Assembly: GCF_007004735.1 (NCBI RefSeq) | Contig: NZ_SSNL01000006.1 | Location: 1-64,000 of the forward strand | Source: Salinigranum halophilum | GTDB lineage: Archaea > Halobacteriota > Halobacteria > Halobacteriales > Haloferacaceae | Direction of reading: 5' to 3' | Length of the DNA: 64,000 nt | Shown here: positions 2,997-8,905 of the stretch, one piece after another | How the letters are laid out: each line of letters opens with the position of its first letter | Position numbering within the stretch: the stretch's first letter is position 1 | Program-made: the position numbers and the translations under genes | The notes under the pieces: generated by a model | Seen by the model: only the letters and a program-made list of their open reading frames with translations | Told to the model about the DNA's origin: nothing | Database searches by the model: none

Positions 2997-3151
2997 ACGG
3001 CTGAAGAGGCTCACAGGCAACGTCTACGACCTAGCAGCGCCCCGGTCGTATGATGCGACAGCAGCAAACGCGGCTCTGTTGAGCCCCTTGTCAGCCGATT
3101 CATGTTGCCTTTGTGGTGGTCAGTACAGGTGACTCACAGACCAGAGTGGGT

Positions 3152-3664
3152 TCACCGCTGGTCTTCAGTGATGTACCGCTCATAGCCGTACCCCACAAGC
3201 GCACCGAGTGGAACGATGATGGGGGCAGTAATGAGGCCACCGAATACAGCGATTAGAACGGTCAAAAACAGGAACTCGGAGATAGCACCAGCGGGCGCGC
3301 CAGCGGAAACCCGACTCAGCGAGAATATAAAACCTATCGAAGCCGCGAATACGACCAGCGTACCGAACGCTGAAGCGACGCCTGCTGCGGCGCCGTAGAG
3401 TGGGTTCGGCTCATCCGGCATCATCACGCGCCAGACGACAGTCCCGACGAACGCAGCGACAATCGGTGCGAAGATACCCCCGAGTAAGATGATCCCATTC
3501 ACTCCCCGTGAATACTCCGCTATACTGGCGGAGTCGAATCCTTGGGCCCTGAACGTCTGGAAGATGTTCCAGAGGTTAATCAGGACGGCACCAAGGAGGG
3601 CCGACCCGCCGGCAGCGAGGCCTGCCCCGACATCCCGCCGAGAGACACCCAGATAGTTGGTCAT
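3152..3664 (-). CDS. Four-helix membrane protein, possible passenger gene
   Basis: 170 residues starting MTNYLGVSRRDVGAG. Hydrophobic segments lie near residues 15-32, 55-78, 90-115 and 130-155, and the tail is charged (GYGYERYITEDQR). Gly and Ala content in the helices is high. No family is recognised. It sits between the left end of the TSD-flanked element and the nested TnpB element, so it probably moved with the larger element. It reads in the same direction as the small gene at 5143-5319, and the TnpB element may have split an original pair. Confidence 0.55.
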   Translation of the reverse strand: MTNYLGVSRRDVGAGLAAGGSALLGAVLINLWNIFQTFRAQGFDSASIAEYSRGVNGIILLGGIFAPIVAAFVGTVVWRVMMPDEPNPLYGAAAGVASAFGTLVVFAASIGFIFSLSRVSAGAPAGAISEFLFLTVLIAVFGGLITAPIIVPLGALVGYGYERYITEDQR

Positions 3665-3852
3665 GTTCTAATCGCTAAAGATTGTGACTGCTTACTGATA
3701 AAAGAGATGTGTCCCTATTACGGAGATTCAAGGAGAAAGCCCCGTGCTTTAGCGCGGGGATGAATCCGACACTACCTTTCACGAATCATTGCCGATAGCA
3801 CGGTCTGATATTCCAATAGTTTCTTAATATAGTAACTATTGTTACAAATGTA

Positions 3853-5140
<1,288 letters not shown>

Positions 5141-5142
5141 TG

Positions 5143-5319
5143 TCAATGACGTTTGTACACCAGCCAGTACGAGAGTGGGAGTGTAATCGTGAGGATCACG
5201 AACGTCCCGAGTAGCTGGCTATAGACGTCTGGAGGCGAGATCTGGGCGGCGATTGCGAATCCGAGGATAATAAGAAAAGACTCGTAGATGACGAACCGGG
5301 GAAGGCGTGATAAGTTCAT
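5143..5319 (-). CDS. 58-residue membrane protein ending at the TnpB element border
   Basis: ATG at 5319 to TGA at 5143-5145, with 58 residues: MNLSRLPRF, a helix with ESFLIILGFAIAAQI, a short loop, a second helix with LGTFVILTITLPLSYWLVY, and the tail KRH. The two clean helices support a real gene. The stop codon lies within the conserved right end of the TnpB element, so the insertion may have supplied the present stop and removed a native C-terminus. It lies inside the 3072-5428 element. Confidence 0.5.
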   Translation of the reverse strand: MNLSRLPRFVIYESFLIILGFAIAAQISPPDVYSQLLGTFVILTITLPLSYWLVYKRH

Positions 5320-5518
5320 AATCTTGACTCGTACTGCCCTACGAATAACTCCACCGACGACCTTGCAGACCTACCGAGCGGCTGTTGCACGGTCCGGTGT
5401 GTCTAAAGAAGAGAACTTCAACAGAGCCGCAAACGCTTATGTAGTTAGTTCGATCCGTGTCAGTTACCGGAGACCGACTGGGCACCGACCGTGTCACTGC
5501 CATCGGTCAATCCAGACC

Positions 5519-6529: not shown

Positions 6530-6838
6530 CGCGTTAGCCATCTCCCGCGACGGACAAATGCTGACTGGATTGGCTTCCCTGCGATAGGTCCACTCATATC
6601 TGCGCCGAGCAAACAGCCCGATGGCTCTGACCGACGCGCGGTCTATCCAGAGTCTATCAGTAACAGCATGCTCGATAGAGAGTGTGTATGCAGCACTTCG
6701 GTTCTGCGTATGGTACCGGGCACACGGTGCATTCTTTGAAGTAGAGAACAACGGCTCTGTTGAAATCCTATTGTTGCGACACCTTTCTCGCTGAATCAGC
6801 CGTTAGATAGGACTGCGTATCCCGCAGTATTCGATCTG

Positions 6839-7378
6839 TTAGGATACCTCGTAGTGGTGTTCTACGATTCCGCTGCCGTGTGTAGTCGTGTCGACGAGGC
6901 TCAGTCTCTGACCGTCGTATTCACCCGAGAACAGCGGTATTCCCTCTCCTAAGAGAATCGGAATGAATGATAGTCGGATTACATCGATCTCTCGCCTCTG
7001 GAGAAATGACTGTGCGAGTTGTGCGCCACCGACCAACCATATGTGGTTGTATTGCTGTCTGATTTCAGGCACAAAATCTGCTATCTCGTCGTCAACGAAT
7101 TGTACTGCCTCGGTTGCGGGTGAGAGACTTCTGTGGGTGAACACGTACGTTGGCTTGTTCCCATAAGGCCACTCACCGAAGTCGATAACTTGTTCATAAG
7201 TCGCTGACCCCATTACGAGACAGTCTACTGTCTCGAAGAATTCCGAAAATCCTTCGACATCCTCATCGCCGTCCGACTCCGTTTGAAACTCTTCCAGCCA
7301 GTCAACGCCACCCTCCTCATCGGCAATGTATCCATCCACGCTCGCCGCGATGTAGAGTGTGATTTTATCTTCACTCAT
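6839..7378 (-). CDS. Dihydrofolate reductase-family (RibD C-terminal-like) protein carried by the IS
   Basis: 179 residues. KITLYIAASVDGYIADEEGG at the N-terminus, CLVMGSATYEQV near 55, and the nucleotide-binding type IWLVGGAQLAQSF near 114 are marks of the DHFR/RibD-C superfamily (YyaP/YwjB-like). Such proteins bind NADPH and reduce pteridine- or pyrimidine-like substrates. The exact substrate cannot be told from sequence. It lies inside the terminal repeats of the IS, on the same strand and 77 bp downstream of the transposase. Its AT-richer sequence suggests transfer with the element. Confidence 0.8.
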   Translation of the reverse strand: MSEDKITLYIAASVDGYIADEEGGVDWLEEFQTESDGDEDVEGFSEFFETVDCLVMGSATYEQVIDFGEWPYGNKPTYVFTHRSLSPATEAVQFVDDEIADFVPEIRQQYNHIWLVGGAQLAQSFLQRREIDVIRLSFIPILLGEGIPLFSGEYDGQRLSLVDTTTHGSGIVEHHYEVS

Positions 7379-7455
7379 ATGACCTCTTATCGACGCTGAT
7401 CGTCATTAGAGTTCGGAAGTACATCTTAGTGCTGACCATCCCCTATATCTAACGT

Positions 7456-8277
7456 TCAGAGTCCCTTGTCGATGTTGTGGGTGAGACAGCCAATAGCGAG
7501 TTCACGGAACTGCTTCCACCAGCGTCGTGAGCGGACGAATGCGCCGTATTTACGTTTGAGACGAGAATTCACCGTCTCGTTCTGACTCCGCTGCCCGTAG
7601 AGGTCAGCGTCAAGTCGGGAGTTCCACGCCTTGTGGAGTGGCGAAAATTCTCGGTGCTTGATGAGCGGTCGAACACCCGTTTCACGGGCTAACGCGCGAA
7701 TCTTCTGGTCATCGTACCCCTTGTCACCGAGGAGTATCGCTACTTCATCGGTATTCCGCTTGATGAGTGACGGTGCGATCTGTGAGTCGTGCTTTCTGGT
7801 CGTCGTCACGTGCAGATCAATAACCGCGTTTGACTTCGTGTCTACGAGAAGTGTGACTTTCAGCTGCTGAATCGTCAACTTCGTCCGCTTCGTATAGTGC
7901 TTCGAGGCGTGACTGCGATCAAAACCGGATGCATCGATACCGACGATACTGTTGGTTGGGAGAATAGTGACTGAGAGATTGAGAAGAACCCGCCAAACAG
8001 CCATATCAAGACGGTTGAACGCTTTACACAACGTCGAAGGAGATGGGATCTCCTCAAGATCGAGGGTACTCCGAATCCGAGGCATTTCAATAAGTTCGTC
8101 AAGAAGCGCCCGGTACGTCGTATTCTTCCGCACCTTGAGACAGAGGAGGACGATGTGTTGATGAAGTGTGTACCGCCGTTTCGAGAATTTCGACGAGTAA
8201 CGAGCGACTGCTCGCTGAGCCAACTGCATAGCTTGCTCAACGAACCGGAGTAACCGCGACTTCGGGAGGGTTTTCAT
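7456..8277 (-). CDS. IS5-family DDE transposase
   Basis: 273 residues, full length for haloarchaeal ISH1-like transposases. The DDE residues are visible as D115 (GIDASGFDRS), D185 (LLGDKGYDDQK) and E234 (SQNETVNSRLKRKYG). A helical N-terminal region with KFSKRRYTLHQH and PSPSTLCKAFNRL precedes the catalytic core. No frameshift or early stop is seen, so it is probably active. The start at 8277 lies 36 bp inside the terminal repeat at 8313-8329, as expected for a promoter formed by the element end. Confidence 0.92.
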   Translation of the reverse strand: MKTLPKSRLLRFVEQAMQLAQRAVARYSSKFSKRRYTLHQHIVLLCLKVRKNTTYRALLDELIEMPRIRSTLDLEEIPSPSTLCKAFNRLDMAVWRVLLNLSVTILPTNSIVGIDASGFDRSHASKHYTKRTKLTIQQLKVTLLVDTKSNAVIDLHVTTTRKHDSQIAPSLIKRNTDEVAILLGDKGYDDQKIRALARETGVRPLIKHREFSPLHKAWNSRLDADLYGQRSQNETVNSRLKRKYGAFVRSRRWWKQFRELAIGCLTHNIDKGL

Positions 8278-8350
8278 CCAGTCAGACTACTAAGCGAACG
8301 AGTAACCCTCTGAGGATTTCAACAGAGCCAGAACAACGTATATACCGAAC

Positions 8351-8905
8351 ATGGGGTTAGGTGGGGGAATCGCCGCCGTCTGTAAACAGTACGGCCCGGG
8401 CCGGCTTCCGTACGCACATCGGCGGGATGTCGGCGCAGGCTATGCGATGGCAACCGTCGCAACACTCACGACGACGGCGTTTATTCTGGTGACACAGCTC
8501 GTCGGTATCTCGACGATCATGTCCTCGTGGTATGCGGCGTACGATGGACCGCTGCTCGAGCAGGTCATCGGAATGGTCGCGACGGTTCCCGGAGGATTCC
8601 TCGTCTGGCGGGTCCCGAGACTTCGCGTGTGGCGTGGCGTTCCAGCCGGGCTCGCGGCGATGGTCTTGATGTACCCCGCGAGCACCCTGGTCGATTTCTT
8701 GGTCATATAGCCGCTTCAGCAGTTGGTTGCCGGCCCCCCCATGTCGCTGTCGGAGTTTCTCTGGCTGCCGATAGTGGCACCGATCTGGGCGGTGGGCTTC
8801 GCGTATGCCGCGTTCACGACGACGTTCTGGCTCTCCTTGCCGGCCGGTGCGCTCGGGGCGTACATCCACGAGTACGGTCGAACGCAGTCCACCGCATCGC
8901 AATAA
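8351..8905 (+). pseudogene. Membrane protein gene interrupted by an in-frame TAG
   Basis: One frame runs from ATG 8351 (or the likelier ATG 8447, MATVATLTTTAF) to TAG at 8708-8710. It continues in the same frame as LVAGPPMSLSEFLWLPIV to the stop at 8903-8905. Both halves are hydrophobic and read as one protein of about 150-185 residues with five or six helices. A single base change (for example CAG to TAG) explains the interruption. The second half has no good ATG before MSLSEFLW, so it may be untranslated. The IS5-type insertion lies about 20-115 bp upstream and may have removed its promoter. Confidence 0.5.

Follow-up and report, generated by a model that had tools for sequence, protein, structure and literature searches.

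The window, a stretch of 64,000 nucleotides from Salinigranum halophilum, contains two elements with IS-like ends and target-site duplications, 1.3 kb apart. The original prediction described the one at 6745-8337; its neighbor, a transposase-less mobile insertion cassette (MIC), was absent from it. The features of the two elements are as follows:

3072-5428, no strand: MIC, flanked by the duplication GCAAACGC at 3064-3071 and 5429-5436
3152-3664, minus strand: hydrophobic 170-aa ORF inside the MIC, no match in Pfam
3853-4902, plus strand: TnpB-like protein (Cas12f1-like TNB domain) inside the MIC
6745-6752, no strand: left copy of the target-site duplication, AGAACAAC, an exact 8-bp repeat
6753-6769, plus strand: left terminal inverted repeat, 17 bp, GGCTCTGTTGAAATCCT
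6753-6819, plus strand: conserved left end of ~67 bp, common to relatives with other cargo
6820-7437, no strand: variable cargo slot, from comparison with relatives
6839-7378, minus strand: cargo gene, 179-aa RibD_C / DHFR-like protein (Pfam PF01872)
7438-7455, no strand: conserved slot border on the transposase side, ~18 nt past the stop
7456-8277, minus strand: 273-aa transposase of IS5 type, in whose sequence the Y(2)R(3)E(6)K signature (YGQRSQNETVNSRLK) can be read
8313-8329, minus strand: right terminal inverted repeat, perfect reverse complement of GGCTCTGTTGAAATCCT
8330-8337, no strand: right copy of the target-site duplication, AGAACAAC

The element at 6745-8337 is a unit of 1,577 bp whose inverted ends match in 17 of 17 bp and whose flanking duplication matches in 8 of 8, just as predicted. 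By arithmetic, the chance of a perfect 17-bp inverted pair within 1.6 kb is ~1e-4 and that of an 8-bp repeat adjoining the ends ~1.5e-5. In a profile search the transposase scored 218.7 bits against the IS5 model NF033579 (cut-off 140), and the DDE transposase of IS5 type, the terminal inverted repeats and the short target duplication together place the element among the IS5 insertions. The cargo gene is codirectional with the transposase and lies between the transposase stop and the left end. As both genes lie between one pair of ends with a duplication, the earlier claim that they form one transposable unit holds. A passenger unrelated to transposition inside one end pair is the hallmark of a transporter IS (tIS), and movement as a unit is indicated for the window element by its duplication and for its relatives by the occurrence of the same element at different sites. 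The element is present once in its own genome; no empty target site was found among 167 genomes, and both flanks occurred together in no relative.

The neighboring element at 3072-5428 has ends of the same type as the IS at 6745-8337, a perfect duplication and other coding capacity but no cognate transposase, which makes it a MIC; its TnpB-like gene is possibly a nested IS200/IS605-type insertion. The hydrophobic protein within it and another encoded beside the IS, at 8351-8710, share a similar RRDVGAG start and look like paralogues.

The cargo protein matches PF01872 positions 2-196 with its residues 5-172 (E 9e-16), and a match spanning most of the protein identifies it as a RibD_C / DHFR-like reductase. 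The nearest solved structures are 2xw7 (E 1.5e-24) and 3jtw, and the NCBIfam model ribD_Cterm scores it at 20.6 bits, far under the cut-off of 150. Compared with a homologue in Halobellus captivus (76% aa identity), it has a dN/dS of 0.18. The start of that homologue lies 117 bp inward of a related IS end, and its orientation is opposite; no transposase was found near it, nor a second copy of the 8 bp flanking the related end. Among the genomes searched, a RibD_C gene occurs as cargo inside an IS in the window element only, and the other homologues (L131-L158) have neither a transposase nor an end close by, so we rejected the idea that the gene is a fixed part of the IS. A DHFR-like gene is likewise not a constant feature between the ends, as the slots of relatives hold other cargo. 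The gene is probably one exchangeable cargo under purifying selection. Its product would be an ordinary NAD(P)H-dependent reductase that originated in haloarchaea, probably without a part in transposition.

We searched for relatives at the DNA level in 170 genomes of the same family as the window genome and later fetched loci across the class, delineating 155 loci by transposase, inverted repeats and 8-bp duplication; a duplication was accepted when 7 or 8 of 8 bases matched. Relatives match the window element in two blocks. One is the left end (query ~6-77), the other spans the transposase and the right end (query ~694-1585); in the first loci read the blocks were separated by ~250-1,230 bp of unrelated DNA. 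In a sample defined by hits to the window transposase, and thus not a census, we found 131 ISHla2-like elements with both ends in Halobacteria, 73 with a duplication and 58 without a matching one; a further 17 loci lacked a far end in the DNA examined and 7 were weak. The 73 elements with duplications measure 1,176-4,019 bp. The slot borders are sharp, at ~60-70 bp from the left end and ~18 nt past the transposase stop. The conserved borders alone would give ~90 bp between transposase stop and left end, but the distance is at least 306 bp in all 73. Ordinary elements had been expected to carry the transposase alone and a passenger to be unusual, which is wrong here: the slot is filled in 73 of 73 cases, with content that differs almost every time, and a filled slot is the rule in the ISHla2-like group. 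No copy among the 73 ends near the equivalent of position 7440 with neither passenger nor 6753 end, in agreement with the original prediction. One transposase-only element, L065 (994 bp), is among the 58 without a matching duplication. In L042/L050 and L023 the left end of one lineage is joined to the transposase side of another.

L045 and L058, both from the genome G072, carry an IS110-like element with 1,376 bp of identical sequence, inserted in each case after GGCTCTG within the left terminal repeat; the position is the same while cargo and duplications differ, as if the insertion targeted the repeat. A 4,353-bp element of Natrinema zhouii (NZ_CP084882; L263:7793-12145, duplication ACCGAGAT) has a broken transposase, and its slot encodes an MFS transporter together with three hypothetical proteins.

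The main ORFs of the 73 elements fall into 65 clusters, membrane proteins among them. Over the 131 elements, Pfam matches of the cargo include phosphatidylserine decarboxylase, SnoaL, TrmO, alpha/beta hydrolase and PLP enzyme; aminoglycoside 3-N-acetyltransferase (partial) and GNAT acetyltransferases; a pilin with PKD, a periplasmic binding protein with an FAD enzyme and GST with glyoxalase; the regulators and sensors TrmB, AsnC, HTH_10 and PAS histidine kinases; a formate/nitrite transporter with TrkA_C and PHO4 with Usp; and the redox proteins thioredoxin and redoxin (peroxiredoxin). A few slots contain other transposases (IS66, IS240-type, IS5 and, by inspection, IS110), which are probably nested insertions. 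Slots can be as long as 3.1 kb and encode intact enzymes and transporters; in those under 460 bp the ORFs are mostly no longer than expected by chance. For 12 homologous cargo pairs dN/dS was 0.12-0.59, mostly below 0.3; a thirteenth, L113/L118, was saturated, and the formate/nitrite transporter of L193 and L222 differs by four changes only, too few for an informative ratio. The purifying selection indicated by these ratios supports a function of some kind. A search for donor loci of the L119, L041 and L186 cargo led to plasmid relatives at 66-87% identity, mostly within annotated gene neighborhoods. One small cargo family, with a DUF7344 match in L123, recurs in five elements (L073, L123, L177, L208 and L218) and is perhaps regulatory, and HTH_10 proteins of the bacterio-opsin-activator type occur in four (L044, L186, L200 and L208). 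Two proposed biases of the cargo were rejected. A transmembrane window was predicted in 35 of 60 clusters against 55% of window ORFs, which is no enrichment, and for known defense genes PADLOC, run on 10 proteins, gave only modest PDC-S70 matches, those of the L238 PIN-like protein.

Cassettes bounded by the same type of ends but lacking a transposase were found beyond the window, in the same genome and in two other species:

C4:139785-140918 (L238:1501-2634), own genome: MIC with the duplication GGTCGAAA, encoding a PIN-like protein and an upstream antitoxin-like ORF by our own reading
L033:7425-8327, H. captivus: MIC with the duplication GCCTTGTA
L265:47566-49929, Halomicrobium urmianum: MIC with the duplication GGGAAAAG, encoding a gene of the pyridoxamine 5'-phosphate oxidase family

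Searches with 20 permuted end sequences recovered zero elements with a duplication in ~270 kb (the window and four plasmid stretches). The own genome also has a solo perfect left end at C5:498292-498308, perhaps a partner for capture, perhaps a relic; the 11 kb around it contained no transposase and no matching partner end.

In four pairs (L174/L175, L010/L017, L014/L128 and L073/L218) the two elements share their cargo but sit at different sites and are flanked by different duplications. With duplicates removed, and with pairs that are not independent of each other, the same cargo was found in 7 of 8 pairs whose transposase modules are at least 99% identical, in 1 of 3 at 97-99%, in 4 of 48 at 95-97% and in 2 of 259 at 90-95%. 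Cargo turnover is thus fast, sharing falling steeply with transposase divergence.

The clearest case of replacement involves L029 and L193, both with duplications, which are 99.8% identical in the transposase and right end and fully identical over the first 60 bp and the ~69 bp adjoining the transposase. L029 carries a gene for a 156-aa lipoprotein-like protein, L193 a formate/nitrite transporter with a TrkA_C protein. The cargo of L193 recurs at 98% identity in L222/L223, a 2,442-bp element with similar ends and the duplication ACCAGGCC but without a transposase. L193 looks like a recombinant, with a left end like L029, an interior like L222 and a transposase side like L029. Its switch points are at the GCGC at the inner edge of GTGCTGAATACAG[C/A]GCGC and at CACCCTCT adjoining [G/A]TATTCAGCA, and their position in these motifs suggests that the exchange occurred inside short inverted subterminal motifs. 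This is the one clear swap trio, and the motif does not flank cargo generally: inverted TGCTGAATACAG at both cargo borders, considered as a general rule and rejected, is exact only in L029, L193 and the MIC L222, with one other close case.

With a probability of about 0.78, we interpret 6745-8337 as a single insertion, that of a passenger-carrying IS5 element (tIS type) belonging to the ISHla2-like group. In this group the contents of the slot are replaced but both flanking parts, the left end (~60-70 bp) and the transposase plus right end, are retained, and ends of the same type also bound MICs. The interpretation draws on what can be read from sequence, namely the unit structure, the variable slot, the same cargo and transposase at different sites, the MICs with the same ends and the single recombinant trio. 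The transposase would act on any DNA between two compatible ends, from which we infer that MICs may be moved in trans. An IS could gain new cargo through recombination at short conserved subterminal stretches, its partner being a MIC or another copy, and such exchange may be the main source of new IS cargo; alternatively, cargo could enter when the right end of an IS pairs with a neighboring left end. The cargo may also benefit its host or, as the original prediction suggested, have a role in element control. Weighing against the interpretation are the single swap trio, the 58 of 131 elements without a matching duplication and the 17 loci without a far end, the mostly chance-like ORFs in slots below 460 bp and the lack of an empty site.

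It is also possible, if somewhat unlikely, that cargo is acquired by composite capture only, a gene being flanked by two IS copies or by an IS and a solo left end and internal deletion removing the inner parts, with no exchange with MICs. The solo end at C5:498292, the second left end located further out in L051, L066, L070 and L086, and the nested IS5 in L015 are all consistent with such a route. However, L029 and L193 differ in cargo alone and share exact borders, and the cargo of L193 exists as a MIC, which a single exchange fits better than capture followed by deletions. More doubtful is the proposal of a cassette-exchange system built on the IS5 transposase, in which the cargo of IS and MICs is swapped at subterminal sites by a dedicated reaction, either transposase-assisted or microhomology-directed; if true, Halobacteria would have a pool of single-gene cassettes like that of integrons, yet no integrase would be involved. 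We consider it still less probable that the slot is filled for spacing, a size constraint of the ends or the transposase gene making its genes incidental filler: elements with duplications have no slot under 306 bp and in the smallest slots ORF length is close to that expected by chance, but the larger slots hold intact enzymes and transporters and cargo pairs mostly have dN/dS well below 1. Finally, the view that RibD_C is unique, a resistance or metabolic gene recently gained by an IS that otherwise has only its transposase, is almost certainly wrong, since, for all that the gene is inside an IS only here, the class-wide survey found different cargo in every other member with duplications and the H. 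captivus homologue adjoins a related end.

Halobacteria are known for heavy gene exchange. If the slot-exchange reading is true, a class-wide family of tiny transposons regularly carries single genes among them, including sensors, transporters and genes for redox proteins, tRNA modification and acetyltransferases. Of more interest than the single element is this generalization, a class-wide IS5 group whose slot is filled and changes fast, together with a pool of cassettes that lack a transposase. L029 and L193, nearly identical IS with different cargo, and their MIC partner make the question of how passengers are gained and swapped directly testable.

The closest named element, ISHla2 of Halorubrum lacusprofundi (IS5, NC_012030), has a transposase of the same group (81% aa) and the same ends; it is 1,193 bp long, its slot holds a very small and different cargo, a 57-aa ORF, and it is annotated as a transposase and a separate hypothetical protein. 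In the records we examined, the transposase was annotated and the linked gene not recognized as part of the element. One gene, Hlac_3088, has been described as the "passenger gene of a transposon" expressed during infection, as a single case and not as a family (PMC10544981). In its genome an ISHla2-like transposase (79% aa) is followed by a PGF-type surface protein and an intact far end, giving 1,804 bp flanked by sequences that do not form a matching duplication; judged by this content, Hlac_3088 very probably belongs to an ISHla2-like member. The literature searched, a scope that excluded subscription papers and ISfinder, contained no description of a passenger-slot pattern for IS5 or archaea. 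By analogy only, the exchangeable single-gene cargo resembles integron gene cassettes; unlike those, it lies inside transposon ends, and no integrase or attC site was noticed. The tIS, reported initially in the IS1595 family (PMC3129680, citing Siguier 2009), are likewise IS with passengers unrelated to transposition; ours belong to another family, and the rapid passenger turnover and the MIC partner are their new points. Most similar is the IS231/MIC231 system of the Bacillus cereus group, in which diverse passengers lie between the left end and the transposase gene and transposase-less MICs also occur (PMC2266710, PMC1196294). Those elements belong to the IS4 family of bacteria and carry passengers in a "significant fraction" of cases, whereas the elements described here belong to IS5, occur in archaea and are class-wide, with passengers in 73 of the 73 that have duplications.
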